This document shows, piece after piece, positions 45,044 to 62,453 of a stretch of 64,000 nucleotides of DNA (the first letter of the stretch is position 1; each line of letters opens with the position of its first letter). This DNA is from Streptomyces sp. NBC_01314 (lineage in GTDB: Bacteria > Actinomycetota > Actinomycetes > Streptomycetales > Streptomycetaceae), in NCBI RefSeq assembly GCF_041435215.1, contig NZ_CP108394.1, forward strand, positions 372,001-436,000, written 5' to 3'. The notes below the pieces were generated by a model. The model did not search any database, had not been told where the DNA came from, and saw nothing but the letters and a program-made list of their open reading frames with translations. The translations under genes and the position numbers were made by a program.

Positions 45044-46591
45044 TCATACGGGGCTCCCTGTCACCGTTGTCGCGGTTGTCGCGGTTGTCGCGGCGGTGCC
45101 GATGCCGGGGGCGGCGAGCCCTTCGCCGAGGAGTGCGGCCACGGTCTCCGCGCAGCTACCGCACCCGCTGCCGGCGCGGGTGCGGTGCCTCACCGCCGCC
45201 AGGTCGGCGCAGCCGCCACGGACGGCGGAGCGGACCGTGCCCGCCGGGACGTTGTGGCAGTGGCAGATCGTCGTCTCGTCGGGCAGTGGTCCGACGGCCG
45301 CCGACCGCCCCGGAAGCGGTCCGGGGACGACGAGTTCCTCGACGGGGGCGGGCAGCGGCCGGCCGCTGCTCACGAGACGGCGCAGCGCCGCGTAGCCGGA
45401 AGTGTCCCCCACGAACATCCCGCCGAGCAGCCGCCCCTCGCCCAAGACGCGCAGGCTGCGGTACACCCCGGCCCGGGTATCGAGGTGGGTCGCCTCGAAT
45501 GCGCCGGGCGCCGCCTCGGGCTGTCCACCGAAGCAGGCGACCTCCACGCCGAGCAGCTTCAGCCGGGTCGCCGTGTCCCAGCCGGTGAAGGTCTTCGTGC
45601 CGCCGGCCAGTCGGTCGGCGACCACCTGGGCCATGGCGTTGCCCGGGGCCAGCAGTCCATGCGCGCGCCCGTCGGGGGTGAGCGCGCAGTCCCCGATCGC
45701 GTAGACGTGCTCGTCCTCCGTGCGGCAGGTCTCGTCGACGACGATCCCGCCCCGCTCCCCCACGGCGATCCCGCAGGACCGGGCGAGTTCGTCGCGGGGG
45801 CGTACCCCCGCCGCGAACACGACCACGTCGGCGCCGACGTGGACGGGCCGCGCGCCGTCGGGCGGCTGGAGCCGTACGCCGGTGGCCCGGTGGCGCGCGT
45901 CGGTCTCCACGGCGGTGAGGCGGGTGCCCGTGTGTACGGCGATGTCCAGGTCCTCGATGTGGCGGCGCAGCGTCCAGCCGCCGTACTCGTCCAGTTGGCG
46001 GGGCATCAGCCAGGGGGAGAACTCGACGACATGGATGGTCAGTCCGAGGGCCCGTAGCGCGCCCGCGGCCTCCAGGCCCAGCAGCCCGCCGCCGATCACC
46101 GCGCCCACGCCCGCCCCACCGGCCGCGCCGGCCGTTTCGCAGTGCGCCCGGATGGCCCGTACGTCCGCGGCCGTCCGGTAGGCGAAGCAGCCGGTGGCGT
46201 CGGCTCCGGATACGGGCGGGACGAAGGAGCGGGAGCCGGTGGCGAGGACCAGGACGTCGTAGTCGATGACACGGCCGGCGGCCGTGGTCACCCGGCGGCG
46301 ACCGCGGTCGACCGCGACGGCCGGGTCGCCGAGACGGGTCCGGATGCCCGTACGGTCGCCGAAGCCGGGCTCGCCGAGGAGCAGGCCCGCGGGTCCGGTC
46401 CGCCGGAACAGCCGGCTTTCCGGCTCGGTCTCCTGGAAGTACCGGGACAGGTGGATGCGGTCGTAGGGCGGTATGTCCTCCTCGGCGACCACCGTGACCT
46501 GCCAGTCCCCCAGCGCGCCCCGGGCGTCCAGGGCCGTCAGCAGGGCGTGACCGACCATCCCGTAGCCGACCAGGACCAGGCGGCCGCTCAT
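45044..46591 (-). CDS. NirB/NasB-like FAD-NAD(P)H reductase with BFD [2Fe-2S] domain, no siroheme domain
   Basis: The 515-residue protein has an FAD motif VLVGYGMVGHAL near 9, EEDIPPYDRIHLSRYF, an NAD motif GGGLLGLEAAGAL near 169, FAD motif VYAIGDCALTPDG, and a BFD-like cluster (ICHCHNVPAG near 441, GSGCGSC near 475). This equals the N-terminal half of NirB. The siroheme/[4Fe-4S] nitrite reductase half is absent. In assimilatory systems such proteins (NasB-like) feed electrons to the nitrate reductase. The start overlaps the upstream gene's stop (ATGA). Last gene of the operon; the tail has an AATTATTATT low-complexity run. Confidence 0.88.
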   Translation of the reverse strand: MSGRLVLVGYGMVGHALLTALDARGALGDWQVTVVAEEDIPPYDRIHLSRYFQETEPESRLFRRTGPAGLLLGEPGFGDRTGIRTRLGDPAVAVDRGRRRVTTAAGRVIDYDVLVLATGSRSFVPPVSGADATGCFAYRTAADVRAIRAHCETAGAAGGAGVGAVIGGGLLGLEAAGALRALGLTIHVVEFSPWLMPRQLDEYGGWTLRRHIEDLDIAVHTGTRLTAVETDARHRATGVRLQPPDGARPVHVGADVVVFAAGVRPRDELARSCGIAVGERGGIVVDETCRTEDEHVYAIGDCALTPDGRAHGLLAPGNAMAQVVADRLAGGTKTFTGWDTATRLKLLGVEVACFGGQPEAAPGAFEATHLDTRAGVYRSLRVLGEGRLLGGMFVGDTSGYAALRRLVSSGRPLPAPVEELVVPGPLPGRSAAVGPLPDETTICHCHNVPAGTVRSAVRGGCADLAAVRHRTRAGSGCGSCAETVAALLGEGLAAPGIGTAATTATTATTVTGSPV

Positions 46592-47943
46592 CCGTCACCT
46601 CCGAGTGCCGAGACCAGGTGGAGGCGGTCCGGGGGCAACGGTTCGGCCGCCTCGTAGGCCCGGCGCACCGTGTCGACGGTGGACAGGTCGCCGAGCAGGA
46701 TGCCGCCCACGACGCGATCGTCCCGGGTGACGATCTTCTTGTAGACGCGCCGCCGGTCGTCCGAGACGGAGAGCACGTCGGTCCTGGCCCCGCCTCGGAC
46801 GCCACCCCCGACACCGGTGGTGGCCTCGCCGAACACCGCCAGGTCGACCTTCCCCGCGATGAGCCGGGTGAGCGTGCGGGACCCCGTGAACCGGGCGTGC
46901 CGCTCGTGCCCGGACAACCTCGCCGCGAGCACCTCGGCCTGCTGCCAGGCCGGCACGGCCGTGTCGTGCACGACCCCGCGATGCTCCGCACAGTCCCCGA
47001 TGGCGTACACGTCCGGATCGCCGACACTGGCCAACGTGTCATCGACCACCACCCCCGCCCGCACCAGGAGCCCCGCCGCACGCGCGAGCCCGACCCGCGG
47101 CCGTGTACCGCACGCGACCACGACGAGATCGGCGGCGACCACCCGCCCGTCCCCGAGCAGCACCCCACGGCCCCCGTGACGCCCGGCCGACGCCACAAGC
47201 CGCACGCCCCCGGGCCCCCCGGCCGAACCCGACGCCGACACTCCGGCATCCCCCGGGCCCGCGGCCCGAGCCGCTGCCACCCCGGTCCCGCCCCCGTGAC
47301 CGTCGACCGGGCCCACCGCGGGCGTTCCCGTCCGTACCGTGATGCCCGCGTCCTCCAGGACGCCGCGGAGCAGGGCTCCGGCCCGCCTGTCCAGGTGGCG
47401 GTGGAGCAGATGGGGGCCCCGGTGGACGAGGGTGACCGGGAGGGTGCGGGCGGCGAGTGCGAGGGCGGTTTCCACGCCCAGGAGACCGCCGCCGATGACC
47501 GCGGGGGTGCGGGCGTCGGCACAGTCGGCGGTCAGGTGCCGGCAGTCGGCGAGGGTGTGGAGGTGGTGTTCGCCCGAGGCCGGGCGGGTCTGTGGCCAGG
47601 GGTGGTGGGGGCTGCTGCCGGTCGCCAGGACCAGCGCGTCGTAGGCGTGCTCGGTGCCGGTGGAGTCGATGACCGTGCGGGTGGCCCGGTGCACGGCGAC
47701 GACACGGACGCCGGCCCGCAGGTCGATGCCGGGCGGCAGCGGCAGGGCGATGTCCTCGGGGCGGTGGTGACCGGCCAGGACGCCGGTCAGGAGCGGGCGG
47801 TTGTAGGCGGGGCGGTGTTCGCCGTCGAAGACGGTGATCCGGACGTTGGGGTTCAAGGCCGTCAGCAGGCGGACGAAGCGCGCCCCCGCCATACCGCAGC
47901 CGACCACGAGAACGCGGCACGCGGCGCCGTCTTCCCTTCCCAC
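46588..47943 (-). CDS. FAD-dependent NAD(P)H oxidoreductase (rubredoxin-reductase/NirB-like)
   Basis: The 451-residue pyridine nucleotide-disulphide-type flavoprotein has VLVVGCGMAGARFVRLL near 12, EHRPAYNRPLLTGVLAG, second dinucleotide motif AVIGGGLLGVETALALA near 150, and FAD-binding DVYAIGDCAEH. A Gly/Ala-rich insertion follows around 235-260. No cluster cysteines are visible. It lies 27 bases after nasA and overlaps the next reductase by four bases, so it is probably another electron donor for the nitrate reductase. An exact paralogue function cannot be assigned. Confidence 0.82.
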   Translation of the reverse strand: MGREDGAACRVLVVGCGMAGARFVRLLTALNPNVRITVFDGEHRPAYNRPLLTGVLAGHHRPEDIALPLPPGIDLRAGVRVVAVHRATRTVIDSTGTEHAYDALVLATGSSPHHPWPQTRPASGEHHLHTLADCRHLTADCADARTPAVIGGGLLGVETALALAARTLPVTLVHRGPHLLHRHLDRRAGALLRGVLEDAGITVRTGTPAVGPVDGHGGGTGVAAARAAGPGDAGVSASGSAGGPGGVRLVASAGRHGGRGVLLGDGRVVAADLVVVACGTRPRVGLARAAGLLVRAGVVVDDTLASVGDPDVYAIGDCAEHRGVVHDTAVPAWQQAEVLAARLSGHERHARFTGSRTLTRLIAGKVDLAVFGEATTGVGGGVRGGARTDVLSVSDDRRRVYKKIVTRDDRVVGGILLGDLSTVDTVRRAYEAAEPLPPDRLHLVSALGGDG

Positions 47944-47970
47944 GGTTACCTCCAGGGACCGATCGACCGA

Positions 47971-50121
47971 TCACAGGGCTTGTACGGCGGTCGCCGCACA
48001 CGGCCGCCCCGGCGGGCGGGAAGGGAACGCGGCCACCGGTGCCACGCGTACGGCGCACACCTTGAACTCGGGCATGCGCGAGACCGGGTCGAGCGCGGGG
48101 TTGGTGACCGTGTTGGCCCGACCCGGCCCGGACCAGTGGAAGGGCATGAACACCACGTCCGGGCGGATGTCGGTGCTCAGCCTGGCCGGGGCCACAGCCG
48201 TCCCCCGCCTGCTGGTCACCGTCACCGGCTCACCGTCCACCACCCCGAGCCGACCGGCCGTGGAGGGGTGGATCTCGACGTACGGCTCCGGCGCGGCGGC
48301 CCGTGACGCGGCCACCCGACGGGTCTGCGCCCCGCTCTGGTACTGGGCCAGCACCCGCCCGGTGACCAGGTACAGCGGATACCGCTCGTCGGGGGTCTCG
48401 GCCACCGGCCGGTGGTGGACCGGCACCATGCGGGCCCGGCCGTCGGGCGTCGCGAAGGACTCCAGGAACAGCCGGGGCGTCCCGGGGTGTCCGTCCGCGG
48501 GGCACGGCCAGAACACCCCGTTCTCCTCGCTGATCCGTTCGTAGCTGATCCCCGCGTAGTCGGCCCGGCCGCCGGCCGACGCGGCCCGCAGTTCGTCGAA
48601 GACCAGGCGCGGATCGGCCGGAAAGCCCTCGGTGCGGCCCAGCCGGGCCGCGAGGGCGGACAGGATCTCCAGGTCGGTGCGCACCTGGGCGGGCGGCTCG
48701 ACGGCCTTGCGGCGCAGGATCACCCTGCCCTCCAGGTTGGTCAGGGTGCCGGTCTCCTCCGCCCACTGCGCCGACGGCAGGACGACATCGGCGAGTTCGG
48801 CCGTCTCGGACCGTACGACGTCCACGACCACCAGCAGGTCCAGCGACCGCAGCCGCCGCTCCACATGATCCGCGTGCGGCGCCGACACGACCGGGTTGGA
48901 CCCGATGACCAGCATCGCCCGGACCCCGTCGGGCGTGCCCGCGGTGTCGAGCATCTCGTAGGCCGAGGTGCCGGGGCCGGGCAGTTCCCCGGGGGCGACG
49001 CCCCAGAGGCGGGCGATGTGCTCCCGCGCCGCCGGGTCGGTCAGGCTGCGGTAGCCGGGCAGTTGGTCGGCCTTCTGCCCGTGCTCGCGCCCGCCCTGCC
49101 CGTTGCCCTGGCCGGTCAGGCAGCCGTATCCGCTGTACGGCCGGCCCGCCTTCCCCAGGGCCAGACAGAGGTTGATCCAGCCGTGCACCGTGTCGGTGCC
49201 TTTGCTGTGCTGTTCGCTGCCGCGGGCCGTGAGCACCATTCCGGTGGGCGCCTGGGCGAACATCCGTACGGCTTCGCGTATCTGATGGGCGGGCACACCG
49301 GTCAGCCCTTCGACGCGGGCCGGCCAGTACTCCATCGCGGTGGCGCGCACGGCCTCGAATCCCGTCGTCCGGGCGGCGACGAAGTCCTCGTCGACATGGC
49401 CCTCGGCGAGGGCTATGTGCAGCATGCCGAGGGCCAGGGCCAGGTCGGTGCCGGGCAGGAGGCGCACGTGCAGGTCGGCCCGCGCGGCGGTGCGGGTGCG
49501 GCGGGGGTCCACCACGATCAACCGCCCACCGCGGTCGGCCAGTCGGGTCAGGTGGCGCAGGGCGGGCGGCATCGTGTCGGCCAGGTTGCTTCCGACCAGC
49601 AGGACGCAGTCGGTCCCGGCGACGTCGGCGAGCGGGAAGGGCAGCCCCCGGTCCAGGCCGAAGGCCCGGTTGACGGCCGCCGCCGCCGACGACATGCAGA
49701 ACCGGCCGTTGTAGTCGATCGCCGACGTACGGAGCGCGACCCGGGCGAACTTGCCCAGCAGATACGCCTTCTCGTTGGTCAGCCCGCCACCGCCGAACAC
49801 CCCGACGGCGTCCGGCCCGTACGCGGTCTGTGCCGACCGGATGCCCGAGACCACGCGCCGGAGCGCCTCGTCCCAGGTGGCGGGCCGCAACGCCCCGCTC
49901 CGGCCGTCGCGGACCAGCGGTGTGCCGAGCCGGGCCGCCGGGTCCAGCAGGTCGGTGGCGTTCTGCCCCTTCCCGCACAGCGCCCCCTGGTTGACCGGGA
50001 ACTCCGGCCATCCGGTGAGCGCGAGCGGCGCCGCTCCGCCCTGGTCGGGCCGCAGCACCGTCCCGCACTGCAGGGCGCAGTACGGGCAGTGCGTACGGAC
50101 GGCGTCGGCCGGCTCGTTCAT
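47971..50121 (-). CDS. nasA: Assimilatory-type nitrate reductase catalytic subunit
   Basis: The 716-residue molybdopterin oxidoreductase starts with C12-x2-C15-x3-C19...C49 for a [4Fe-4S] cluster (RTHCPYCALQCG, NQGALCGKG). The Mo-bis-MGD domains contain DYNGRFCMSSAAAAVNRAFG (the Cys is the likely Mo ligand), LLVGSNLADTMPP, IVVDPRRTRTA, and the C-terminal LVTGRVLAQYQSGAQTRR. It reduces nitrate to nitrite in the cytoplasm. The ATG overlaps the pabAB stop (ATGA at 50118-50121). Nitrate reductase translation is therefore coupled to PABA synthase, an unexpected pairing for simple nitrogen assimilation. Confidence 0.92.
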   Translation of the reverse strand: MNEPADAVRTHCPYCALQCGTVLRPDQGGAAPLALTGWPEFPVNQGALCGKGQNATDLLDPAARLGTPLVRDGRSGALRPATWDEALRRVVSGIRSAQTAYGPDAVGVFGGGGLTNEKAYLLGKFARVALRTSAIDYNGRFCMSSAAAAVNRAFGLDRGLPFPLADVAGTDCVLLVGSNLADTMPPALRHLTRLADRGGRLIVVDPRRTRTAARADLHVRLLPGTDLALALGMLHIALAEGHVDEDFVAARTTGFEAVRATAMEYWPARVEGLTGVPAHQIREAVRMFAQAPTGMVLTARGSEQHSKGTDTVHGWINLCLALGKAGRPYSGYGCLTGQGNGQGGREHGQKADQLPGYRSLTDPAAREHIARLWGVAPGELPGPGTSAYEMLDTAGTPDGVRAMLVIGSNPVVSAPHADHVERRLRSLDLLVVVDVVRSETAELADVVLPSAQWAEETGTLTNLEGRVILRRKAVEPPAQVRTDLEILSALAARLGRTEGFPADPRLVFDELRAASAGGRADYAGISYERISEENGVFWPCPADGHPGTPRLFLESFATPDGRARMVPVHHRPVAETPDERYPLYLVTGRVLAQYQSGAQTRRVAASRAAAPEPYVEIHPSTAGRLGVVDGEPVTVTSRRGTAVAPARLSTDIRPDVVFMPFHWSGPGRANTVTNPALDPVSRMPEFKVCAVRVAPVAAFPSRPPGRPCAATAVQAL

Positions 50122-52301
50122 CGGAGCCCGCCCTCCGCGGCCCTCGTCGGTGCCACTCGATCGGTCGTGGACGCGGCGTCCTGGCCGGACGTACCCGCGA
50201 GCAGCACCCGCAGCGATGTGGCCGCCTTCAGCAGCATCTCCTCGTATTCCTCGACGAGATCGGAGTCGAGCACGATGGCGCCACCGGCGCCGGCGTGCAG
50301 ACCCTCCTCCGTCAGTACGGCGGTCCGGATGACGATGTTCAGATCGGCCGTGCCGTTGCAGGAGAGGAAGCCGATGGCACCCGAGTAGACGCCGCGTGCC
50401 TGGGTCTCCAGGGAGTCGATGATGTCCATCGTCCGCAGTTTCGGCGCACCCGTCATCGAGCCGCCGGGGAAGCAGGCGCGGACGCAGTCCAGGGCGTCCA
50501 CCTCGGCGCGGAGCCGGCCGCGGACGGTGGACACCAGCTGGTGCACGGTGGCATAGGTCTCCGTGCGCATCAGCCGGGGAACGGTGACGCTGCCGACCTC
50601 GCACACACGGCCGAGGTCGTTGCGGAGCAGGTCGACGATCATGAGGTTCTCGGCCCGGACCTTGGCGCTCGTCGTCAGTTCCCGGCGCAGCCTGGAGTCC
50701 TCCGCCTCGTCCGCGCCGCGCCGGGCGGTGCCCTTGATGGGCTTGGTCTCGACCATGCCGTCGCGGGTGATGCGCAGGAACCGCTCCGGGGAGGAGCAGG
50801 CGATCTCCATCCCGTCCAGGCGCAGATAGGCGGCGTACGGGGCGGGGTTGGAGCGTCTGAGGGACCGGTAGAAGCGCAGTCCGTCGGCGGGGCGGGGGGC
50901 CTGGACGGCGTTGGTCAGGCAGATCTCGTAGCTCTCCCCGGCGAGCAGCTCCTGTTTGCAGGCGTCTATGTCGGCGAGGTACCGGGCGCGGTCGCGCACG
51001 AGTGCCGGTTCCAGCAGCGCGTTGTCGACGGCCTGCTGGTCGGGTACGGGGGTCGGCCGGGGGCGGGGCAGCGCGGCGAGCACGGCGGCGGTCTTCTCCA
51101 GCCACACCGTCGTGTCGCGGTCGGAGCGCGGGCTGCCGTCGCTGAGGGCCAGCAGATAGGTGGCGCCCTGCTGGTGGTCGACCGCGATCAGCCGGTCGGC
51201 GAAGATCCAGAACGCGTCCGGGGTGGGCGAGGTGTGCTGCGCGGTGGCACCGCAGTCGGCCTTCAGCTCGTAGCCGAAGTAGCCGACGTAACCGCAGGAG
51301 AAGTCGACGGGCAGGGCGGGGTTCTCGACGCGGCGGGCGCGCAGCGCCGTCTGGAGGTAGTCGAAGACGGTGCCGTCGACCCGTTGGGTCTCCCCGTCCG
51401 CCGACGTGACCTCGACGGCGCCGTCGCCGACGCGGTAGCGGACGATCTCGGAGAGCGGACCGGAGGCGTCGCCGAGGAACGAGAAGCGGGACAGCCGCGG
51501 GTCGATCAGGGAGCTGTCGAGCCAGAAGGCGTGCGAGGAGTCGGCGAAGAGCCGGGTGAAGGCGGCCTCGGTCTCCACCGCCGACTCCATGATCCGGGAG
51601 TGCAGGCGGTAGGGGCGTGGCTCGACGGGCCGGGGTGCGGGCCGCGAGCCGGTCTCCACGGGTACCAGGTGGGCCCCGGGGCGGACCGGCGTCCGGCGGC
51701 GCGAGGAACCGCGCTTGTGGTGGAACCGCTCCGTGAGATCGCGGAAGTTGCCCAGCAGCTCGTACCCGAACTCCGTGGCGACGGACTCGGGGTGGAACTG
51801 CACGCCCCACAGCGGGCGGGTACGGTGCCGAAGGCCCATCAGCACCCCGTCCTCCGCCCACGCTGTCGCCTCCAGCTCCGGCGGCAGCGGCTCCGGCACG
51901 CACAGCGAGTGGTAGCGCACGGCGGTGAAGTACTGCGGAAGGCCGTGGAAGAGCTCCCGTCCGTCATGGCGCACGGCGGTGAGGTGCCCGTGCCTGGCCG
52001 CAGGCGCCCGTACTATCTCCGCGCCCGACCCGGCGGCGATGCCCTGGTGGCCCAGACACACGCCGAGCACGGGCAGGCGGGCGGATTCGATGATCGGCGC
52101 ACACGCGCCGAAGTCCTTCGGCCGGGTGGGATCGCCCGGGCCGGGAGAGATCACCACGTTGTCGAAGTCGTTCAGGTCGAGCTTCGCGCAGTCCGGTGAG
52201 TCGTTGTGCAGGACCACGGGCTCGACCCCGTTCACCTGCGCGATCAGCTGGAAGAGGTTGTAGGTGTACGAGTCGTGGTTGTCGACGAGCAGGGTCCGCA
52301 T
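50118..52301 (-). CDS. pabAB: Aminodeoxychorismate synthase, fused PabA-PabB
   Basis: The protein has 727 residues. Residues 1-200 are a glutamine amidotransferase (VDNHDSYTYNLFQLI, nucleophile in GVCLGHQG near 80, HPES near 168). Residues 230-715 are chorismate-binding. The key motif is PIKGTARRG near 519: Lys here marks PabB, while anthranilate synthases have PIAGT and phenazine PhzE differs. FPGGSMTGAPKLRTMDI and the C-terminal AGGAIV complete the family. It converts chorismate and glutamine to 4-amino-4-deoxychorismate. Fused PabAB is typical of antibiotic clusters (candicidin, chloramphenicol) rather than folate synthesis. GGGAG precedes the ATG. Confidence 0.94.
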   Translation of the reverse strand: MRTLLVDNHDSYTYNLFQLIAQVNGVEPVVLHNDSPDCAKLDLNDFDNVVISPGPGDPTRPKDFGACAPIIESARLPVLGVCLGHQGIAAGSGAEIVRAPAARHGHLTAVRHDGRELFHGLPQYFTAVRYHSLCVPEPLPPELEATAWAEDGVLMGLRHRTRPLWGVQFHPESVATEFGYELLGNFRDLTERFHHKRGSSRRRTPVRPGAHLVPVETGSRPAPRPVEPRPYRLHSRIMESAVETEAAFTRLFADSSHAFWLDSSLIDPRLSRFSFLGDASGPLSEIVRYRVGDGAVEVTSADGETQRVDGTVFDYLQTALRARRVENPALPVDFSCGYVGYFGYELKADCGATAQHTSPTPDAFWIFADRLIAVDHQQGATYLLALSDGSPRSDRDTTVWLEKTAAVLAALPRPRPTPVPDQQAVDNALLEPALVRDRARYLADIDACKQELLAGESYEICLTNAVQAPRPADGLRFYRSLRRSNPAPYAAYLRLDGMEIACSSPERFLRITRDGMVETKPIKGTARRGADEAEDSRLRRELTTSAKVRAENLMIVDLLRNDLGRVCEVGSVTVPRLMRTETYATVHQLVSTVRGRLRAEVDALDCVRACFPGGSMTGAPKLRTMDIIDSLETQARGVYSGAIGFLSCNGTADLNIVIRTAVLTEEGLHAGAGGAIVLDSDLVEEYEEMLLKAATSLRVLLAGTSGQDAASTTDRVAPTRAAEGGLR

Positions 52302-52375
52302 GGCGATCTCCCTGGAGTGGCACGGCGCGGCCCTCACCGAGGGCTCGGCTGCTGGGGTTGTCTTCGAGGTGCCGG

Positions 52376-53797: not shown

Positions 53798-53927
53798 GCG
53801 GGTGCTCCTGTTGCGGATCGAGAACGGCGTGGCGTCGTGGCGTCGTTACGTCGTGGCGTCGTGGAAGAGGCGGAACAGGGAGGGGTGAAAACAGGGAGAG
53901 CGAAACAGAGAGAGGCGTCCCCGCGGC

Positions 53928-54587
53928 TCAGAATTTCTTGCCGAGCTCCTGTGCCTGGGCGTGTGCGTTGCGGCGCAGGAGATCGGCGTCCTCGGTGATC
54001 TGATGCGCTCTCAACTGGATCGTGGAAATGTCGGTGACCCCCGCCCACCGCAACCAGCCGTCGAACGCCGGGGTCTGGTGGTCTTCACCGAAAGCGGGCG
54101 GCAGACCCGGCCCGTAGATCGAGCTGGTGTAAACAACCACCGCTTTCTTTCCCTTGAGCAGACCGGTGTAGCCCGAGTCCCGGTCGAAGGAGAAAAGCAT
54201 GCGGGCCTGGCTCACCACGTCGATGAAGTGCTTGAGGACATAGGGAATTCCGAAATTCCACATGGGCACGCTGAACACATATTTGTCGTAGCTGTCGAAG
54301 TGCTCGAAGGTGCGCCGGACCGCCTCCCAGGCCACGGCGCCCTCCCCCTCGGCCCGTCCCCCGGACGCCTCCGCCCGCTTGGCCTCGACCGCCGCCGCCC
54401 CGAACTCGGGAAGCCGTTCCCGCCAGAGGTCGAGGACGTCGGCCGTCGCGCCGGGACTGGTCTGGCGGTAGGCGGTGACGAGGGTCTCGGCGATGGCCCT
54501 GGACTGCGAGCGCTCACCCATGGGGGAGGCGACGATGTGCAGCAGACGCGTGACGTCCACCTGTTCCGCATGTGCGTTCGGGTTCAT
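53928..54587 (-). CDS. FMN-dependent NADH:azoreductase/quinone reductase (AzoR-like)
   Basis: The 219-residue flavodoxin-like protein includes LLHIVASPMGERSQSRAIAE (FMN phosphate loop), YVFSVPMWNFGIPYVLKHFI and VVVYTSSIYGPG, all hallmarks of AzoR. These enzymes reduce azo bonds, quinones and some nitro compounds. The start overlaps the luxC-like stop by four bases, tying it to acid reduction. In a pathway that may form diazo or azo species it could be a tailoring or self-protection enzyme (inference). Confidence 0.9.
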   Translation of the reverse strand: MNPNAHAEQVDVTRLLHIVASPMGERSQSRAIAETLVTAYRQTSPGATADVLDLWRERLPEFGAAAVEAKRAEASGGRAEGEGAVAWEAVRRTFEHFDSYDKYVFSVPMWNFGIPYVLKHFIDVVSQARMLFSFDRDSGYTGLLKGKKAVVVYTSSIYGPGLPPAFGEDHQTPAFDGWLRWAGVTDISTIQLRAHQITEDADLLRRNAHAQAQELGKKF

Positions 54588-56017
54588 CTGATGACCGCCT
54601 TGGAGCGCATGAGGAACTCCGCGAGATAGCCGTCGTGCGGGACGCCCGGCGCCATCCAGTGCGTGGGGTGGTGTCCGACATGGACGTTGCTGATGCTCGG
54701 CTCGTCGACCAGACGCTCGACGAGCCGTTCGTCCCGGCCGATCACGGTGAGCACCAGGGTGTTCCGCAGCGGTCCGACGCCGTCCTTGGGCGACCAGGGG
54801 GCCACCCAGACACAGGGGAAGGGGAGTTCGGTGCCGAGCTGCGGCGCGTCCGGCCGGTCCAACTGGATCACGGCGGGGCGCAGTACGGCGCTGCCGTCGC
54901 CCAGTTCGTCGACGATCCCGTCGCCGCCCAGCCACAGGGTCGCGCCGTCCGCCTGGCCGAGCAGGTACTTCTCCAGCCTGCGCGCGTCGGCGGTGGGCTG
55001 GACGGGCAGGACCGCCTTGTCGTCCTCCGGCGGCAGGCTGGGCAGCCCGGCCAGCCGCTCGGCGATGGCCTCGGCAACCGGTGCCGGGTCGCCGGCCACG
55101 AAGACGGCGGTGGCGTTGACGCAGGCGACCCCGCCCTCGTCCCGGATCGAGGCGACCATCGTGTCGAGCGCGGACGACAGGCCCGCGCCCACGCCCGTGT
55201 CCACGTCCGCCAGCAGGATCTTGGACCGCCCGGGGCCCTGGGTCAGTACGTTCGGATGCGCCCGGTACTTCTCCACCACCGCGTCGCCGCCGTACACGAG
55301 CGACAGGTCGGCGCCCCGGACGATGTCGTCGGCCACGTGGTGGTCGGTGGGCAGCAGCAGGAGCCGGTCGTCGCCGATCCCCGCCTCGCGCAACGCCGTC
55401 ACCAGCCGGTGCGGGGTGAAGGGCTCCCGTCCGGAGGGCCGTACCGCGACCCGGTAGCCCAGCACCAGCGCTTCGAGCCACAGGCCGTGCACGCCGGGAT
55501 GGTTGCCGGCGGCGTGCACGGCGAAGACGTCACCTCGCCGGGCCCAGACCGCGCCGCCGCCCCGAGTCCGCGGGTCCCGCCAGTGGTCGACCGTCGCCGT
55601 GGGGCGGGCGCAGCGCACGGTGCGGTCCACCTCGGCCGCCGCGCGCTCGATCCGGGCGGTGGCGGACCTCACCACCGCGACCGGCACACCGGAGACCCGG
55701 CTCACGAGACGCTGGTACTCCGGGGCCGACAGGCCGCCCACCGTGCCGTTCGCGAACGCGTGCCCCGCTCGGGCGATGACCTCGGCCAATGCACCGGAGC
55801 CTGCCGGGCCGGCGGCGCGCAGCGCGGACAGGCCGCGCTGGACGAACAGCCGTGGCACCTGGCTGAGTTCGGCGACCGGCTGCCCGGTGACATCGGCCAC
55901 GGTCAGTCGGTTCCGAGCCCGGAAGGCACCGCGTGAACCGAGGGCGTCGAGCTGGATCGGGCCGCCCGCCGGTGGGTCCACCGGTGCGTCCATCGGCCCG
56001 CCCCTCAGGCCGCCCAT
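54584..56017 (-). CDS. LuxC-like acyl-CoA/acyl-enzyme reductase
   Basis: The 477-residue aldehyde-dehydrogenase-fold protein matches the acyl-CoA reductase (LuxC) family. Nucleophilic Cys lies in GGVACVNATAVFV near 285, cofactor region includes VHAAGNHPGVHGLWLEALVL, and ELPFPCVWVAPWSP is near the end. It reduces an enzyme-bound or CoA thioester to an aldehyde with NADPH. Its ATG overlaps the LuxE-like stop by one base (TGATG), so the two are made together, as in fatty acid reductase pairs. No luxAB luciferase is present, so the substrate is more likely an aromatic acid. Confidence 0.88.
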   Translation of the reverse strand: MGGLRGGPMDAPVDPPAGGPIQLDALGSRGAFRARNRLTVADVTGQPVAELSQVPRLFVQRGLSALRAAGPAGSGALAEVIARAGHAFANGTVGGLSAPEYQRLVSRVSGVPVAVVRSATARIERAAAEVDRTVRCARPTATVDHWRDPRTRGGGAVWARRGDVFAVHAAGNHPGVHGLWLEALVLGYRVAVRPSGREPFTPHRLVTALREAGIGDDRLLLLPTDHHVADDIVRGADLSLVYGGDAVVEKYRAHPNVLTQGPGRSKILLADVDTGVGAGLSSALDTMVASIRDEGGVACVNATAVFVAGDPAPVAEAIAERLAGLPSLPPEDDKAVLPVQPTADARRLEKYLLGQADGATLWLGGDGIVDELGDGSAVLRPAVIQLDRPDAPQLGTELPFPCVWVAPWSPKDGVGPLRNTLVLTVIGRDERLVERLVDEPSISNVHVGHHPTHWMAPGVPHDGYLAEFLMRSKAVIR

Positions 56018-57111
56018 CAGTAGACACCTTCGATGACGACCTCGTCGTCGAAGGTCCGGACGGGGCTGACATCGGCCACCGAGTCGCCGAGTTGTCCGGC
56101 CTCGGGGCGGATCCGGGTGGCGACGTCGCGTTCCAGGTTGTTGGGGAGCAGGGCGCTGCGGCTGACGTGGTTCATGACGACCTGGCCGCGTGCACCGTAG
56201 GGAACCGGCTGCCCCGTCTCGGGGTCGACGACCGAGAAGGAGATGTGGGGCGCGAAGGGATCGAAGACGCACTCGTCCTCGCTGCCGGCGCGCTCGACGG
56301 CCCCGCAGAGGATCATGGTGCTGCCGTAGTTCCCGAACAGCTGGACGTCGGGGAAGACCTCGGTCCGGAACAGGTGCCTGCTGTCGGCGTCCATGTGGGC
56401 CCCGCTCCAGATGATGACCTGGATCTTCTCGTTCACCAGCTTGACGAGGTGTTCGTGCTGCGCGAGCCGCTCCAACAGCGGGGGCGTGATGACCAGTACG
56501 CCGATGTCCTGGGTCTCCAGCAGGAACTCGCCCTGGGCCAGAAGGTGCTCGACATAGCGGCCGGCCTCGTCGCCGCGCCCCTCGGCGATGCATTTCTTCA
56601 CCCAGCGCGGATCGAGGTCGATGGTGGAGGTGAAGCCGCCCCGGCGCCGCGCCTGGCGGGCAACGACCTCCCCCCACAGATGGGGGCCGCTGGGGATCAT
56701 GGCCAGCCAGTGGGCGTCACGGGGGTGACCGCGTTCGTCCATCCGCCCGGTGGACCAGGTCACATACCTGTCCATCCAGTCGGCGAGGTAGGCGACCCGC
56801 TTGGGTGCGCCGGTCGTGCCGCCGCTCTCGTAGACGCCGATCACCTCGGTCGACGGACCGTAGCCCTGGGGGATGAGGTCCCGGGCGGGCACGTCGCGCA
56901 ATTCGTTGACGATGTTGGGGAACAGCCGGAGGTCGTCGAAGGTGCGGACGTCCCGGCGCGGATCGAAGTCCAGGGTCCGCGCCCTGCGGAGCCAGTACGG
57001 CGAACCCGTCTCGGGGCCGAAGTGCCACCGCATGGCGGCCTGGATGAACTCCTCCGGATCGGGGACCTGGTCCGGGGGAAAGGTGAGGACGGGGTCTGAG
57101 GCGACTGCCAT
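56017..57111 (-). CDS. LuxE/EhpF-like acid-activating (acyl-adenylating) enzyme
   Basis: The 364-residue ANL-type enzyme includes IGVYESGGTTGAPKRVAYLA (phosphate loop), DRYVTWSTGRMDERG, QLFGNYGSTMILCGAVERAG and HISFSVVDPETGQPVPYGAR. It resembles LuxE acyl-protein synthetases and especially EhpF, which activates an aromatic carboxylate for reduction in griseoluteate (phenazine) biosynthesis (known family). AAGGAGA precedes the ATG. With the overlapping LuxC-like gene it probably reduces a carboxylic acid such as PABA or a derivative to an aldehyde (inference). Confidence 0.85.
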   Translation of the reverse strand: MAVASDPVLTFPPDQVPDPEEFIQAAMRWHFGPETGSPYWLRRARTLDFDPRRDVRTFDDLRLFPNIVNELRDVPARDLIPQGYGPSTEVIGVYESGGTTGAPKRVAYLADWMDRYVTWSTGRMDERGHPRDAHWLAMIPSGPHLWGEVVARQARRRGGFTSTIDLDPRWVKKCIAEGRGDEAGRYVEHLLAQGEFLLETQDIGVLVITPPLLERLAQHEHLVKLVNEKIQVIIWSGAHMDADSRHLFRTEVFPDVQLFGNYGSTMILCGAVERAGSEDECVFDPFAPHISFSVVDPETGQPVPYGARGQVVMNHVSRSALLPNNLERDVATRIRPEAGQLGDSVADVSPVRTFDDEVVIEGVY

Positions 57112-57168
57112 GTTTTCTCCTTCAAACCGGGTGCGGACCGGGGTTCGGACCAGGGTGCGGACCAGGGT

Positions 57169-58545
57169 TCAGACCGAGAGGACGACGTCGGGACGGGAAT
57201 CGTGGGCGGTCCGTGGGCGGGGGCGGCGCCGGAGATAGACCGCCCAGGTGACCGTGGCGCAGGCGGCGTAGAAGACCAGGAATCCGGTGAACGCCGGGAC
57301 CCCGCTGCCCCAGCCGGCGAAGGACGCGCGGAACGCCAGGTTGATGAGCACCCCGCCGAGCGCGCCGAGGGCACCGGTCACCCCGATGAGCGCGCCCGAC
57401 AGCCGTCGGGCCCGCGCCAGCCGGGCCCGCGTGCTCGCGCCGCCCTCGTCGCCTCCGCCGTCCTGGAGCGCCTTCGCCAGAAAGATCGCCGGGATCATCT
57501 TGTACGTCGATCCGTTGCCCGCCCCGGCCAGTGCGAGAAGCACGACGAAGTCGGCGACGAACAGACCGAGCGAGTCCGTGCGCGACGCCACGACGGCGAC
57601 CCCGGTGCAGAGCATCAGCGCCACGAACACGGCGAAGGTGACCCTGGCACCGCCGATCCGGTCGGCCAGCCGGCCGCCGCCCGGCCGGGTCAGCGAGCCG
57701 AGCAGCGGCCCGAGGAACGTGAGCGACGCGGCCTGGAGCGGCGTACGGTCGAACTGTGTCTGGAGCACCAGGCCGAACGCGAAGCAGTAGCCGATGAACG
57801 AACCGAACGTGCCGAGGTAGAGCAGGGACATCACCCAGCAGTGGGCGTCCCGCAGGACGTCCCTGAGGGCGTCGGTGTCGTTGCGGTTGCCGGGCAGGTC
57901 GTCCATGAAGAGCGCGGCGCACACAGCGGCGACGACGATCGCCGGAACGAAGACCCCCAGCAGCAGCCGGGGTTCGGCCGCGCCCACCGTGCCCAGCACC
58001 GCGAGGGCGGCCAGCTGGGTCACGGCGACGCCCAGATTGCCGCCACCCGCGTTCAGGCCGAGCGCCCAGCCCTTGTGGCGCTGCGGGAAGAAGGCGTTGA
58101 TGTTCGCCATGGACGAGGCGAAGTTGCCGCCGCCGAGACCGGCCACGGCGGACACCAGCAGCAGCGTGCCCAGCGAGGTGCCGGGGCGCAGGTACACCGC
58201 CGCCAGCACCGTGGGCACCAGCAGCACAGCCGCGCTGAGGACGGTCCAGGTACGTCCGCCGAACCAGCCCACGGCAAGCGTGTACGGAATCCTCAGTACG
58301 GCTCCGACCAGCGTCGGCGTGGAGACGAGCAGGAACTTGTCCGCCGGGGACAGCCCGTACTCCGGCCCCAGGAACAGCACCAGCACGGACCACAGGCTCC
58401 AGACGGAGAACCCGACGTGCTCGGCGAGGATCGAGAACGCCAGATTCCGCATCGCGACCCGCCGCCCCGTACGCCGCCAGAACACCTCGTCCTCCGGATC
58501 CCAGTACCGGATTCCGCGCGGGCCGCTCTTCACCACGGCGCTCAT
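57169..58545 (-). CDS. narK: NarK-family nitrate/nitrite transporter
   Basis: The 458-residue MFS protein has twelve membrane spans. Both nitrate signatures are visible: GLGGGNFASSMANINAFFP in helix 5 and ALAGAGNGSTYKMIPAIF in helix 11. The N-terminal RYWDPEDEVFWRRTG is the usual NarK/NasA start in actinobacteria. It imports nitrate or exports nitrite. AGGAGG lies six bases before the ATG. Its location between the DsbA-like gene and luxE/luxC puts nitrate transport inside the biosynthetic operon. Confidence 0.92.
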   Translation of the reverse strand: MSAVVKSGPRGIRYWDPEDEVFWRRTGRRVAMRNLAFSILAEHVGFSVWSLWSVLVLFLGPEYGLSPADKFLLVSTPTLVGAVLRIPYTLAVGWFGGRTWTVLSAAVLLVPTVLAAVYLRPGTSLGTLLLVSAVAGLGGGNFASSMANINAFFPQRHKGWALGLNAGGGNLGVAVTQLAALAVLGTVGAAEPRLLLGVFVPAIVVAAVCAALFMDDLPGNRNDTDALRDVLRDAHCWVMSLLYLGTFGSFIGYCFAFGLVLQTQFDRTPLQAASLTFLGPLLGSLTRPGGGRLADRIGGARVTFAVFVALMLCTGVAVVASRTDSLGLFVADFVVLLALAGAGNGSTYKMIPAIFLAKALQDGGGDEGGASTRARLARARRLSGALIGVTGALGALGGVLINLAFRASFAGWGSGVPAFTGFLVFYAACATVTWAVYLRRRPRPRTAHDSRPDVVLSV

Positions 58546-58952
58546 CGACAACCTCCTGAAGCAGACGGACATGCCACGCCGCGAGCGAGAACGGCGCGCG
58601 GGAGAAGGACGGGCGAACCAGAACGACGAACGGGCCGGGCGAGGTAAGGGGCGGAGCGGGGCGGTCGAGCCAGGCGGCGATACGAGCCGTTTGGGGGGAC
58701 ACACCGGCTGCGGAGCGAGCGGAGCGATTCCGTACCGACGCGTCGGCACGGCGCCGCCGCCCGCCGGCGGTGTCGAGCCGTGGCACCGGGCCGGGCTCCG
58801 CCCACCGGCAGTCGGGCGGAGCCACGGCACCGGGCCGGTGCGCCGCCGGTCGGCGACGCCCGTGCATGACGCCGGCCGGTCGGCGACACCCGTGCACGAC
58901 GCCCGTCGGCCGACCGCGTCGAACAGCGGTCGTGGCGGTGTCGTGACCGCGC
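58546..58952. other. 407-bp gap with tandem repeat and hairpin
   Basis: It contains a 26-bp unit (GCCGGTCGGCGACGCCCGTG...) at 58845-58870 and again at 58875-58900 with two changes. A partial third copy follows. It also holds a hairpin (GCTCCGCCC at 58795-58803, GGGCGGAGC at 58814-58822). The gap could carry a terminator for the upstream genes and a second promoter for narK onward. No gene is seen. Confidence 0.6.
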
Positions 58953-59642
58953 TCATCCTTGGGCGGGTTCCACCGCTTTGGTCAGGATCCGGCGGTAGAT
59001 CGAGGGGTCGTCGGACTTCAGGGCGACGGCACTGTCGCCGGGTGGCCCCACCCAGTGGTAGTCGACCCCGGGGTTGGGCCAGGAACCGCCGTCCGGAGTG
59101 AACAGGTGCGGGCTCGTGGTCGCGCCGCCGGGGGCGAAGTCGGCGACGTGGGCGAGCGTGGCGGCACGCGCGCGCCCGGCGTCCAGCGCTTCGCCCAGGG
59201 CCCCGGCGTCCACCTCGGGCACCGACCCGGCGACGCCGAGCACCACATGACGCATCGTGATGCAGGCACTGTCGGCGAAGAACGCTCTGCGCAACGCCCG
59301 GTCGAGGGCTTCGCTCGCCGCCAGGCCCTGCTCCTTGGCCGCCTGCACCGCCTCCGCCGCGAGCAGCCTGCTCACCGGCCAGCGCCAGTCGGGCTCCACC
59401 CAGGGTTGCCACCCCGCGTCGGGCTCCATCTCCGCCGCGACCGGGATCTCGGCGTCGATGACCGGCTTGGGCAGTGTGCCCCGGTTGACCACTTCCAGCA
59501 GGACGGCGCGGTGGTCGAACCGTACGACCTCGGCCAGGTCCAGCTCGGCGCGGGTCCGCCACAGCCGCTGGACGGCGACATGCGCCCAGGGGCAGGCGAG
59601 GTCCGCGTAGACCGCCACCGTGCCCGGCAGAACGCTGATCAT
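58953..59642 (-). CDS. DsbA-fold oxidoreductase/isomerase with CPWA motif
   Basis: The 229-residue protein starts VAVYADLACPWAHVAVQRLW, the DsbA/FrnE-type thioredoxin fold. The second Cys of a CxxC site is replaced by Ala. The core continues with a helical insertion (WPVSRLLAAEAVQAAKEQGL) and TTSPHLFTPDGG, the cis-Pro region. Related proteins include FrnE-like and 2-hydroxychromene-2-carboxylate isomerases, which use glutathione or mycothiol instead of a disulphide. The ATG at 59642 is preferred over an in-frame GTG at 59675. Its role in the pathway is unknown. Confidence 0.8.
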   Translation of the reverse strand: MISVLPGTVAVYADLACPWAHVAVQRLWRTRAELDLAEVVRFDHRAVLLEVVNRGTLPKPVIDAEIPVAAEMEPDAGWQPWVEPDWRWPVSRLLAAEAVQAAKEQGLAASEALDRALRRAFFADSACITMRHVVLGVAGSVPEVDAGALGEALDAGRARAATLAHVADFAPGGATTSPHLFTPDGGSWPNPGVDYHWVGPPGDSAVALKSDDPSIYRRILTKAVEPAQG

Positions 59643-59751
59643 GTGCCAGGGGTCCCTTCTGACGTGCTGGTACACACCCGGTCCGGCCCCCGCCCCGCGG
59701 ACCGTCCCGGACGGGTGTGCGCCGGGACGTCCGCGGAGGCGGCGGTACGGG

Positions 59752-61554
59752 TCAGGCGGCCTTGGCCTGCCGGCGCCGGGTGGTCGTCGATTCCGGGCTG
59801 CTCGGCGCGGTGCGCGCCGAACGGGTGCGGGCGATGTCGAGCCCGTGGTCGTCGTCGGAGAGGAGCACCTTCTCGTAGGTGGTGCGCACCTCGCGCTTGA
59901 GCACCTTGCCGGTCACGCCGAGCGGGATGTCGTTCTCGCCCTTGACCAGCACGACCGCGGAGACCTCGTGCATACCGGCCTTGCGCAGCGCCCCGTTGAG
60001 CTGGGCCAGCAGCTCGCGCGAGGTCAGTTCGCAGCGCTCGGCCAGCCGGACCACGGCGACCGGTTCGGACAGCTCCTCGTCGGCGGGGCTGATGGCGGCG
60101 GCCACGACACAGTCCACGGCCTGGCGGCACGCCTTCAGGACGATCTCTTCCGTGGGCAGGCTGTAGACGGGCCCGCGGGCGGTGTGGATGACGTCGGTGG
60201 CCCGGTCGTACTGGTAGAAGCGCCCCTGCTCGTCGTAGTACCCGATGTCACCGGTGAGCCAGAACCCGTCGTGCTTCGAACGGTGCGTCAGGTCGGGGTC
60301 GTTCCAGTACCCCAGCGTCTCGGTCGGGGTCTTGACCGCGATGAACCCGATCTCGTTCGGGCCCAGCCGCTTGCCGTGCTCGTCGTAGACGGTGGCCTCC
60401 TCCACGATGGGCTCCGGGTAGCCCACGCACCGCTTGTAGGCGTCGGTGTCCGGGCCGTGGATGTTCTGGAACACGGCCATGCCCACCTCGGTCGAGGCGA
60501 GTCCGTCGATGTACCGCGAGCCCTGCCGCCACTTGCCGCCGACGCGGTGCCTGCCCAGCCGTACCAGCTCACGGACGTGGGCCTCGTGCGAGGCGTCGGC
60601 CGTGCTGAGCCAGGTGGTCACCCGTGCAGCCGCCGACGGCTCCACGCCCAGCGCCGCCAGCTCGCCGAAGGTGATGGGGAAGGCGATGACCACCGTCGGC
60701 TTCCACCAGCGCATGGCCTCGGCCACCGCCGGCCCCCGCTGCTCCTCCATCACCAGGGTGGGCACCCCGGTCAGGGTGGCCATCATCATGTAGCTGAGGC
60801 CGGAGCCGTGGGACGGGGGGAACACCAGCAGGTTCTTGTCGTCGACGCCGGAGGGCATCGTGAGGATGCGGGGGCGTTTGCCCGCGAAGAACTGGCGGTG
60901 ACCGAGGATCGGCGCCTTGGGCATGCCCGTGGTGCCCGAGGAGTGCGCGATCAGCACCGGGTCGTGGTCACCGTGCATGTACGGATAGCCGACGGGCAGC
61001 GGGCCCACGCGGCCCGCCGAGTCCACTTCCTCCTGCGCGACCGTGAAGCCGAACCCGTCCGGGCTGTCGGCGGCCGCCAGCAAGGTCACCAGCCGGTCGG
61101 CGTCGGCGACGACCCCACGCGGCTCCAGTCGCTTCAGATAGCGCGCCGCGGTCTGGGGCGCCATGTTCGGATTCACCGGGGCGGGAATGGCGCCGATGCT
61201 GTTCAGGGCCATGAAGTGGACGAAGTTGGCGATGCCGTCGCCGCTGTAGATGCCGACCCGGTCGCCACGTCCCACACCGGCGGCGTGGAACCAGCGCGCG
61301 TACCGCTCGGTCGCGTCCCGCAGATCCGCCAGGGAGTAGGCACGGAGGTCCTTCTCGCCGCCGCCGCGCGGCAGGTGGTACAGCAGCGGGGCGTCCAGGT
61401 CGGCCGCCCGGTCGAGGGTGTGCCAGAGGAAGGTCCCCACACCGAGGGAGCGCTCGGACACCAGCTCCAGCCGCGCGCGCAGCCCGCGGTGCGAAGGGCC
61501 CAGTTTCATTCGGCGGACGGACGCCAGATGCCGCTGCAGGGATCGGATCTTCAT
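59752..61554 (-). CDS. Acyl-CoA synthetase / aryl-acid ligase (ANL superfamily)
   Basis: The 600-residue adenylating enzyme includes core motif IAHSSGTTGMPKAPILG, LASTEVGMAVFQN, GFWLTGDIGYYDEQGRFYQY, RATDVIHTARG and the C-terminal catalytic Lys region GVTGKVLKREVRTTYEK. It would make an acyl-AMP then a CoA thioester. The N terminus of about 45 residues is longer than usual, and a basic Arg/Ser-rich tail follows the ligase domain. AAGGAGA precedes the ATG. In this operon it may activate PABA or a PABA-derived acid, or a lipid partner for it; the substrate code cannot be read. Confidence 0.85.
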   Translation of the reverse strand: MKIRSLQRHLASVRRMKLGPSHRGLRARLELVSERSLGVGTFLWHTLDRAADLDAPLLYHLPRGGGEKDLRAYSLADLRDATERYARWFHAAGVGRGDRVGIYSGDGIANFVHFMALNSIGAIPAPVNPNMAPQTAARYLKRLEPRGVVADADRLVTLLAAADSPDGFGFTVAQEEVDSAGRVGPLPVGYPYMHGDHDPVLIAHSSGTTGMPKAPILGHRQFFAGKRPRILTMPSGVDDKNLLVFPPSHGSGLSYMMMATLTGVPTLVMEEQRGPAVAEAMRWWKPTVVIAFPITFGELAALGVEPSAAARVTTWLSTADASHEAHVRELVRLGRHRVGGKWRQGSRYIDGLASTEVGMAVFQNIHGPDTDAYKRCVGYPEPIVEEATVYDEHGKRLGPNEIGFIAVKTPTETLGYWNDPDLTHRSKHDGFWLTGDIGYYDEQGRFYQYDRATDVIHTARGPVYSLPTEEIVLKACRQAVDCVVAAAISPADEELSEPVAVVRLAERCELTSRELLAQLNGALRKAGMHEVSAVVLVKGENDIPLGVTGKVLKREVRTTYEKVLLSDDDHGLDIARTRSARTAPSSPESTTTRRRQAKAA

Positions 61555-61658
61555 CTCGACTCTCCTTGACTCTGTGCTGAACTGGTGGGGGCGCGCGGTT
61601 CGTCGGTGAACGGGGGCGGAAGCGTCGAGCCGGGGGCCCCGCGGCTCCACGGCGGTTC

Positions 61659-62453
61659 TCACCTCGCGGGCAGCGGCGCCAGGAGCGAGTCCAGGTGGGC
61701 CTGCCACAGGCCGTCGGCGAAGGGGGCGGGCGGCGCCGGTTCGCCGCCCGGCTCCCAGCCGGTCACGACCCGGATGCCGTGCAGGGCACTGGTGATCCAC
61801 ACCTCGCACCTCGTGAGGCGGGCGGGGGCGACCCGCATATGACGCACCGTCACCCCGAGGTGGGCGGCCCGGTCGAGCAGCAGCCTCCGGGTGACGCCCG
61901 GCAGGATCCGGCCGTCGTCCGGGGCGGTGCACAGGTCACCACCGTCCCACCACAGCAGGCTGCTGAAGGCTCCCTCGACCGCGTGGCCGTCCTCGTCGAG
62001 CAGGATCGCCTCGTCGGCGCCGTGGAGCCTGGCCTGCTTGCGAAGCCTGCCCTGGGCGGCGAAGTCGGGGCCCTTGAACCGGGGACGGGTCCGGGGGTCG
62101 ACGCAGTCCGCCACCCACACCCTGGCGGTGTCCCGCAACCGGGGGGCGCGGCGCAGTCGCAGCGCGAGCCTGGGCGACGGGCCGGCCAGCAGTTCGAGCC
62201 GGGGGAACCACGCTCCGGTCCGCGGCAGTTCCGCGGTGACCGCGGCGCGGAATTCCGCGATCTCGGCCCGGTCGACGCCATAGGAACCGACGGCCTCCGA
62301 GAACCGGTCCCAGTGCATTTCGTAACCCCGAACCCGGCCTTCGTCAACCAGCCATGAATCGGCTATGACCATTCCCTGGTCATTCTCCTCGGCAGTGAGC
62401 CCGCCGACGGAACTCCATACGAGAAAGGATTGGCTGCCTATTTCAGTACGCAT
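61659..62453 (-). CDS. pabC: Aminotransferase class IV, probable aminodeoxychorismate lyase
   Basis: The 264-residue fold-type IV PLP enzyme carries the likely PLP Lys in RPRFKGPDFAAQG, then ADEAILLDEDGHAVEGAFSS and ILPGVTRRLLLDRAAHLGVT, typical of PabC/IlvE. It completes PABA by eliminating pyruvate from aminodeoxychorismate. With PabAB and DAHP synthase in one operon, ADC lyase is the best assignment, though a D- or branched-chain aminotransferase cannot be excluded. The ATG at 62453 has GAGGAG upstream. It is the first gene of the operon. Confidence 0.85.
   Translation of the reverse strand: MRTEIGSQSFLVWSSVGGLTAEENDQGMVIADSWLVDEGRVRGYEMHWDRFSEAVGSYGVDRAEIAEFRAAVTAELPRTGAWFPRLELLAGPSPRLALRLRRAPRLRDTARVWVADCVDPRTRPRFKGPDFAAQGRLRKQARLHGADEAILLDEDGHAVEGAFSSLLWWDGGDLCTAPDDGRILPGVTRRLLLDRAAHLGVTVRHMRVAPARLTRCEVWITSALHGIRVVTGWEPGGEPAPPAPFADGLWQAHLDSLLAPLPAR

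Follow-up and report, generated by a model that had tools for sequence, protein, structure and literature searches.

Within a window of 64,000 nucleotides from Streptomyces sp. NBC_01314 (contig NZ_CP108394.1, positions 372,001 to 436,000), we found a twelve-gene operon on the minus strand (window positions 45044-62453) that probably serves a specialised metabolite, in which nitrite derived from nitrate would diazotise an arylamine derived from p-aminobenzoate (PABA) and the acid group would be reduced to an aldehyde. Judged by its genes, the cluster has as its probable product an unusual metabolite with a nitrogen-nitrogen bond, for which nitrate would be the feedstock. An earlier note on this DNA had proposed the core of this, i.e. 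the joint supply of PABA and nitrite, acid-to-aldehyde reduction and a possible N-N product, and the sequence data support it. The case is strengthened because a protein of the ANL superfamily turned out to be a diazotase homologue, because the nitrate reductase NasA belongs to a separate clade and comes without a nitrite-reducing half, and because the whole set is co-inherited.

The reactions, their order and the product are what we infer from the enzyme families. PABA would be made by a class II 3-deoxy-D-arabino-heptulosonate 7-phosphate (DAHP) synthase together with PabAB and PabC. Nitrate would be imported by NarK and reduced to nitrite by NasA, driven by two FAD reductases (FAD1 and FAD2), and no enzyme of the operon is predicted to reduce nitrite further. 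The diazotase would use ATP to activate nitrite and turn the PABA-derived arylamine into an arenediazonium, and the carboxylate would be converted to an aldehyde, before or after diazotisation, by an EhpF-type activator and an aldehyde-dehydrogenase-type reductase. For the processing of the diazonium, by an azoreductase-like flavoprotein and a protein with a DsbA/kappa-glutathione S-transferase (GST) fold, we regard two outcomes as most likely, namely that it is reduced to a hydrazine or that a thiol traps it.

Sequence comparison identifies the ANL protein as a homologue of diazotases; the earlier note had missed this central enzyme. Its best NCBIfam model is the 3-aminoavenalumate diazotase AvaA6, with the runner-up at 161 bits, and as CoA-ligase models fall far below the diazotase model, the idea of a plain CoA ligase was dropped. 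The top four matches in the PDB have E-values of 1.4e-77 or lower, the fifth 6.8e-21, and the top four include 9BQ0 and 8TF7, both structures of the triacsin N-nitrosylase Tri17. Within the own genome the ANL protein scores 1370 bits, a paralogue 305 and all other proteins at most 96. Residues S206-G210, E356 and K550 are invariant in an alignment of 30 relatives; these are presumably the catalytic ANL positions, namely the ATP loop, the glutamate (E352 in CreM) and the C-terminal lysine. In a tree of 81 diazotase-family proteins, made by a quick method that gave long-branch warnings and used only for the unity of the cluster's rows, the six proteins from this cluster form one clade with a support of 100. 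The paralogue of the same genome (38% identity; C1:8582146-8583813, in locus L082) lies in an ava-like locus with no creE or creD in 18 kb, and may also need its nitrite from elsewhere. Here and below, L-numbers denote genome stretches that were read for comparison, L001-L005 being the sister loci of the cluster and L083-L088 the flanks of three of them; genes in these loci were called by a simple codon-position script, which makes their starts approximate.

The nitrate genes differ from an assimilatory set in what they leave out. Assimilatory nas/nir genes of Streptomyces likewise comprise NasA, a FAD partner and a NirB-type protein, but NirB is there 867-888 aa long and carries the NIR_SIR domain in the five loci where the gene was read whole, while Pfam finds no NIR_SIR domain in FAD1 or FAD2, and FAD2, at 515 aa, aligns to positions 1-470 of the 794-position NirB model TIGR02374. 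The own genome's assimilatory NirB, among the matches listed, has 867 aa and both nitrite-reductase domains (C1:7620477-7622891). As the flavoproteins of the operon lack the siroheme half, nitrite should accumulate; the operon, as far as its sequence tells, should make nitrite without reducing it further, FAD1 and FAD2 presumably being the electron supply for NasA. Simple nitrate assimilation as the role of the operon was dropped for the same missing half.

NasA has NasC as its best model, below the cut-off of that model, and its position in the tree adjoins assimilatory NasA. That tree comprises 24 proteins, namely those of the window, four sister loci, 11 of 13 loci where NasA is linked to creD (L196 and L197 left out) and eight loci called assimilatory by position or neighbors; NirB is whole in five of these eight, cut in L124 and outside the stretch in L240 and L242. 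The five proteins of the cluster form one clade (100/99) beside the eight assimilatory ones (90/91), whereas the eleven from creE-creD loci make up a third, separate clade (100/100). The cluster's clade was seen only with this gene set (five of five rows), and its NasA appears to have been recruited separately. The earlier note had held that nitrate genes without PABA genes in close relatives would speak against its proposal; for the cluster's own NasA clade, this comparison did not go against the proposal. Further NasA copies are present in the own genome, and NasA-type matches (E<=1e-100) occur in at least 372 of 392 Streptomyces genomes, a limit that is also reached by matches near 40% identity and includes some other molybdoenzymes.

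The PABA genes include the fused PabAB, which passes the pabB model and has the PIKGT motif, noted already in the earlier reading, at residue 521 of 727 aa; its lysine is presumably the functional residue. Another fused PabAB (64%) and another class II DAHP synthase (41%) are encoded elsewhere in the genome, and with the further NasA these extra copies make those of the cluster look dedicated. In the acid-reducing pair, the match of the activating enzyme to the EhpF structure in the PDB spans residues 14-364, which places it in the activation family. Its partner was matched by Aldedh alone at E 1e-3, with Pfam LuxC not listed. The two genes adjoin also in all 75 other reductase loci described below.

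The earlier note had described twelve consecutive minus-strand genes, and these indeed occupy 45044-62453 as one run. Most of its family names match as well; the "LuxC-like" reductase is an Aldedh protein in Pfam terms, the "ANL ligase" is the diazotase homologue, and PabC is backed by weak models. Its view that overlapping starts and stops bind most of the genes does not stand, since only three of the 11 junctions overlap, all by ATGA, namely those of the aldehyde-dehydrogenase-type reductase with the azoreductase, PabAB with NasA, and FAD1 with FAD2. At the other eight junctions, given the starts adopted here, the genes lie 23 to 380 nt apart.

Genes of the operon and its immediate neighbors, in window positions (MFS, major facilitator superfamily; PLP, pyridoxal phosphate).
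Feature	Position	Strand	Evidence
PabC-like class IV PLP enzyme, probable aminodeoxychorismate lyase	61659..62453	-	Pfam Aminotran_4 98 bits
ATP-dependent diazotase / N-nitrosating enzyme homologue, ANL superfamily	59752..61554	-	NCBIfam AvaA6 366 bits
DsbA/kappa-GST-fold protein, cytosolic, one cysteine in CPWxH	58953..59642	-	
NarK-family nitrate/nitrite transporter; start maybe 58536 or close by	57169..58572	-	TIGR00886 291 bits, cut-off 312
EhpF-type carboxylate-activating enzyme	56017..57111	-	PDB EhpF E 8e-81
Aldehyde-dehydrogenase-type acyl reductase ("LuxC-like"), EhpF partner	54584..55993	-	Pfam Aldedh 34 bits; ACVN cysteine motif
FMN-dependent NADH-azoreductase-like flavoprotein	53928..54587	-	PDB azoreductases E 1e-19; NCBIfam below cut-off
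Class II DAHP synthase	52376..53797	-	Pfam 493 bits; TIGR01358 451 bits, cut-off 615
Fused PabAB aminodeoxychorismate synthase	50118..52301	-	TIGR00553 pabB 358 bits, cut-off 328; PIKGT at 521
NasA-type molybdenum nitrate reductase	47971..50121	-	Best model NasC 820 bits, cut-off 1100; own NasA-tree clade
FAD reductase 1 (FAD1), like first part of NirB	46588..47943	-	TIGR02374 241 bits, partial
FAD reductase 2 (FAD2), NirB first half + BFD [2Fe-2S] domain	45044..46591	-	Pyr_redox_2 + Fer2_BFD, no NIR_SIR
MocR-type GntR/aminotransferase regulator beside cluster; frame open from 43015	43330..44862	+	Pfam GntR, Aminotran_1_2
MFS transporter, extends beyond window end; conserved neighbor, membership uncertain	62705..64000	-	Sister-species identity

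An alignment of the reductase was used to scan a single genome of each species; this gave 319 confirmed loci, and the comparison covers the best 80 of them. All twelve genes were found in identical order in Streptomyces scabiei 87.22, S. caniscabiei and S. dysideae, and the gene set occurs on broken contigs in S. torulosus, where NasA (79%) and the FAD genes are on a separate contig, and in S. ossamyceticus; none of the remaining 75 loci has this twelve-gene set. The comparison of synteny across Streptomyces genomes that the earlier note had suggested thus gave the same gene order in three species, with two more on broken contigs. The ratio of nonsynonymous to synonymous substitution rates (dN/dS) was 0.11-0.50 in all gene pairs compared. 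The cluster is conserved, inherited together and under purifying selection, and this is more than chance because gene order is kept across species and dN/dS lies in this range.

The flanks are conserved to differing extents. The adjoining MocR gene is kept in four of the five sister species (66-85%), the fifth contig stopping short of the position, while the MFS transporter is 93-96% identical in three sister species and 79% in S. torulosus, with relatives at 73-78% also in other diazotase loci. Further out, 15 genes called at 22.7-43.1 kb had no matches in sister loci. This stretch includes an IS240-type DDE transposase (41344-42063, plus strand), which adjoins the conserved MocR gene, and an FG-GAP repeat protein of 484 aa (36019-37473, minus strand), likewise without a sister-locus match. 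Upstream of the MFS gene lies an aromatic ring-cleavage operon (L081; own genome C1:434705-449534) with a Rieske dioxygenase, a LigB-type ring-opening enzyme and a DmpG-type aldolase. These genes were considered as part of the pathway and dropped; they are kept in S. scabiei and S. caniscabiei, with merely partial matches in S. dysideae.

The usual source of nitrite in such clusters, the aspartate-nitrosuccinate (ANS) route of CreE and CreD, appears to be replaced here. No tblastn match to creE or creD at E 1e-3 was found in the window, L081, L001-L005 or L083-L088. The CreD query scores 790 bits with the nitrosuccinate-lyase model (cut-off 650) and matches CreD in the PDB at E 2e-178, while the CreE query owes its label to its position next to the lyase and to a PDB match named just "FAD-binding protein". 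Diazotase-family genes were found at 76 places in 66 of 392 genomes, four of these places being the present cluster; the other 72 and three more, i.e. 75 loci, were read over 18-20 kb each, and 31 of them have both creE and creD at 45% identity or more (29 with stricter limits).

The same nitrate genes also turn up beside creE and creD. We examined 43 creE-creD loci, i.e. 40 high-scoring and therefore non-random places plus L021, L024 and L046, and found NarK and NasA directly downstream in 13 of them (L196 stops inside NasA). In L021 (Streptomyces sp. TBY4), L024 (S. katrae) and L046 (Kitasatospora paracochleata) the order creE-creD-NarK-NasA-FAD-FAD runs in one direction, and the second FAD protein is 390-403 aa only. 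By eye, these three cassettes adjoin EhpF, reductase and N-acetyltransferase-like genes, and in L046 also PhzE/PhzD-like genes; two of the three genomes (G007 and G008) had no diazotase-family match at E 1e-40. The own genome has a second such cassette (L195, C1:92000-111900), next to an ANL gene and an SRPBCC-looking gene, and the cassette is matched again near C1:11.23 Mb, which puts it near both ends of the main contig. It may be, with slightly less than even confidence on our part, that the nitrate reductase of the nitrogen cycle was recruited at least twice in Streptomyces as a dedicated nitrite generator for N-N chemistry, in the PABA/diazotase operon and again next to creE-creD, the accompanying NirB-type protein lacking its siroheme half in both cases, and that the operon's product is a reactive, agaritine-like PABA aldehyde or alcohol that bears a diazonium or hydrazine group and takes its distal nitrogen directly from nitrate.

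Several other loci join the same functions in other combinations. L154 has creE (cut), creD, DAHP synthase, PabAB (49%), chorismate mutase, a prephenate-dehydrogenase-like gene and a diazotase, followed by EhpF (57%), the reductase (57%) and an Rv2466c-like DsbA-fold protein. Its plan resembles that of the operon except that ANS genes replace the nitrate genes, suggesting that in the operon NasA does the work of CreE and CreD. L073 combines EhpF, reductase, creE, creD and DAHP synthase with a piece of a diazotase at its edge (44% over residues 400-560) and is thus not diazotase-free; four other reductase loci have ANL matches of 25-27% only.

Two further diazotase types stood out by gene grouping. 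The first (L148, L149, L151, L152, L154, L156, L157, L159, L160, L162, L163 and L164) carries PabAB and a prephenate-dehydrogenase-like gene, with creE/creD in merely part of the loci and a relative of the DsbA-fold protein in ten of the 12; in L154 this is, by Pfam, Rv2466c-like, i.e. a mycothiol-dependent nitroreductase. The second (L166, L172, L176, L177, L178 and L179) shares four more genes, one of which looks by eye like a lysine 2,3-aminomutase, and has no creE/creD. Gene content or general background knowledge is the basis of the labels cremeomycin-like, ava-like, PapC-like, PhzE/PhzD-like and lysine-aminomutase type.

Some observations weigh against the proposed pathway, and they are taken together here. 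The diazotase homologue stays far under the AvaA6 equivalog cut-off of 975 bits and is therefore a relative of AvaA6 with its own substrate, while the PabC-like protein, for all its Aminotran_4 fold, scores at most 46 bits with aminodeoxychorismate lyase models, whose cut-offs are 177 and above. The 380-nt gap between the DsbA-fold gene and NarK leaves room for a second promoter. Nitrite could alternatively come from the genome's own creD-linked cassette, 320 kb away, and nitrite made by the operon could be drained by the housekeeping NirB. Nitrate genes are also rare in this company, since NasA was found in one of the 75 other diazotase loci, an ordinary nas operon in L124. L154 has no nitrate genes within the stretch read, contrary to a strict link between nitrate and PABA, and in L009 (S. 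lincolnensis) PabC (43%), PabAB (58%), EhpF-type activator and reductase occur with no nitrite source in the stretch. Lastly, orthologues of the diazotase at 61-67% identity occur outside the genus, among the matches listed, in Kitasatospora sp. NPDC054939, Actinoplanes teichomyceticus, Micromonospora sp. NPDC048894 and Rhizocola hellebori; searches of 394 genomes of the class and 394 of the family reached none of these four.

The main rival to hydrazine-level reduction or thiol trapping concerns the fate of the diazonium, which could be lost as N2 through an operon reductase, as with AvaA7 and CmaA7, leaving a nitrogen-free benzaldehyde, benzyl alcohol or phenol. We consider this unlikely, even with the precedent of the avenalumic and p-coumaric acid pathways (in excerpts of PMC11705231 and PMC10777205). 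The operon does contain an azoreductase-like flavoprotein, and domain scans called no acyl- or glycosyltransferase among its genes that would keep an N-N product. On the other hand, azoreductases typically reduce N=N bonds and are not known for N2 loss, an amine built just to be removed would be costly, and no AvaA7 homologue was recognised in the operon, AvaA7 itself not having been used as a query.

Less probable still is another kind of nitrosation, with the diazotase homologue acting as a Tri17-like N-nitrosylase and the product being an N-nitroso, C-nitroso or nitro compound, or a nitrosothiol of the DsbA-fold protein. Tri17 is among the nearest solved structures, and comparison of structure models with a second-look aligner indicates a thiol-type fold for the DsbA-like protein. 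Against this, the curated family that fits best consists of arylamine diazotases, the operon would supply an arylamine, and Tri17 itself is described as also converting anilines, to diazo compounds (PMC11705231, in excerpt). Homology of the DsbA-fold protein to the Rv2466c-like protein near PabAB/PapC-type diazotases was considered but gained little from a profile comparison, which gave a probability of 5.6; a DNA search with the gene of the DsbA-fold protein found identities above 60%, among the matches listed, in sister Streptomyces and two metagenome clusters.

A chance union of unrelated neighbors, in which a PABA-aldehyde cluster picked up ordinary nitrate assimilation genes and the ANL protein would be a CoA ligase, is very improbable: NasA-type matches are near universal and the diazotase cluster of L124 does adjoin an ordinary nas operon, but NarK sits between the DsbA-fold and EhpF genes, NasA overlaps PabAB, the order is kept in other species, the cluster's NasA clade was not seen outside it, and the CoA-ligase models lie far under the diazotase model.

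The proposed pathway shares its logic with several known systems. In excerpts of PMC11705231, most known diazotase clusters are described as drawing nitrite from aspartate via CreE and CreD. Clusters fed in this way (cremeomycin, avenalumic acid, p-coumaric acid and spinamycin) have in common with the operon an ATP-dependent diazotase of the CreM/AvaA6 type, with an aromatic amine as its (here presumed) substrate, and a nitrite supply owned by the pathway; they differ in that the operon has NarK-NasA-FAD-FAD in place of the ANS genes, adds acid-to-aldehyde reduction and presumably uses PABA instead of 3-amino-4-hydroxybenzoate (3,4-AHBA) or a 3-aminophenyl substrate. For grixazone, GriC and GriD are described as forming an aldehyde from 3,4-AHBA by an AMP-forming activator and a reductase (PMC10179220, in excerpt). 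To go by this description, they share with EhpF and its partner the logic of activator plus reductase on an aminobenzoate-type acid, the expected substrate here being PABA or its diazonium. For alanosine, nitrate/nitrite reductases were suggested to feed the N-N bond (part of PMC11705231) and are described as non-dedicated (part of PMC12154649), whereas here the nitrate reductase genes are inside the biosynthetic operon. The creE-creD-NarK-NasA-FAD-FAD loci (L021, L024, L046, L195 and nine more) share the four-gene nitrate cassette, including a NirB-type protein that stops short, but have ANS genes and their separate NasA clade. As for the product, agaritine is a fungal 4-hydroxymethyl-phenylhydrazine derivative. 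The likeness to it lies in the proposed product type alone, i.e. a PABA-derived ring, a reduced carboxylate and an N-N bond, with no comparison of genes.

The kinds of enzymes are known; what appears to be new is their combination in a pathway that has nitrate as a nitrite source of its own. In our searches of the open-access literature, no paper turned up that places a nitrate reductase within a cluster of the diazotase or nitrosuccinate kind. A compilation of diazo clusters, as far as described in part of PMC13061610, drew on searches with the combination of creD, creE and creM, with azpL, or with the ava cluster, and such searches would miss a diazotase cluster without creD/creE and ava-type genes. 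Out of 134 ava-related clusters, 72 are reported to lack ANS genes, an alternative route to nitrous acid being one of three explanations (PMC10777205, in excerpt). Nitrate reduction is a concrete candidate for filling this gap, although none of the ava-type loci that we read showed it. If the proposed pathway is true, it would provide a diazotase for simple PABA-type anilines, and it would tie an enzyme of the nitrogen cycle to specialised metabolism, the output of which would depend on nitrate.

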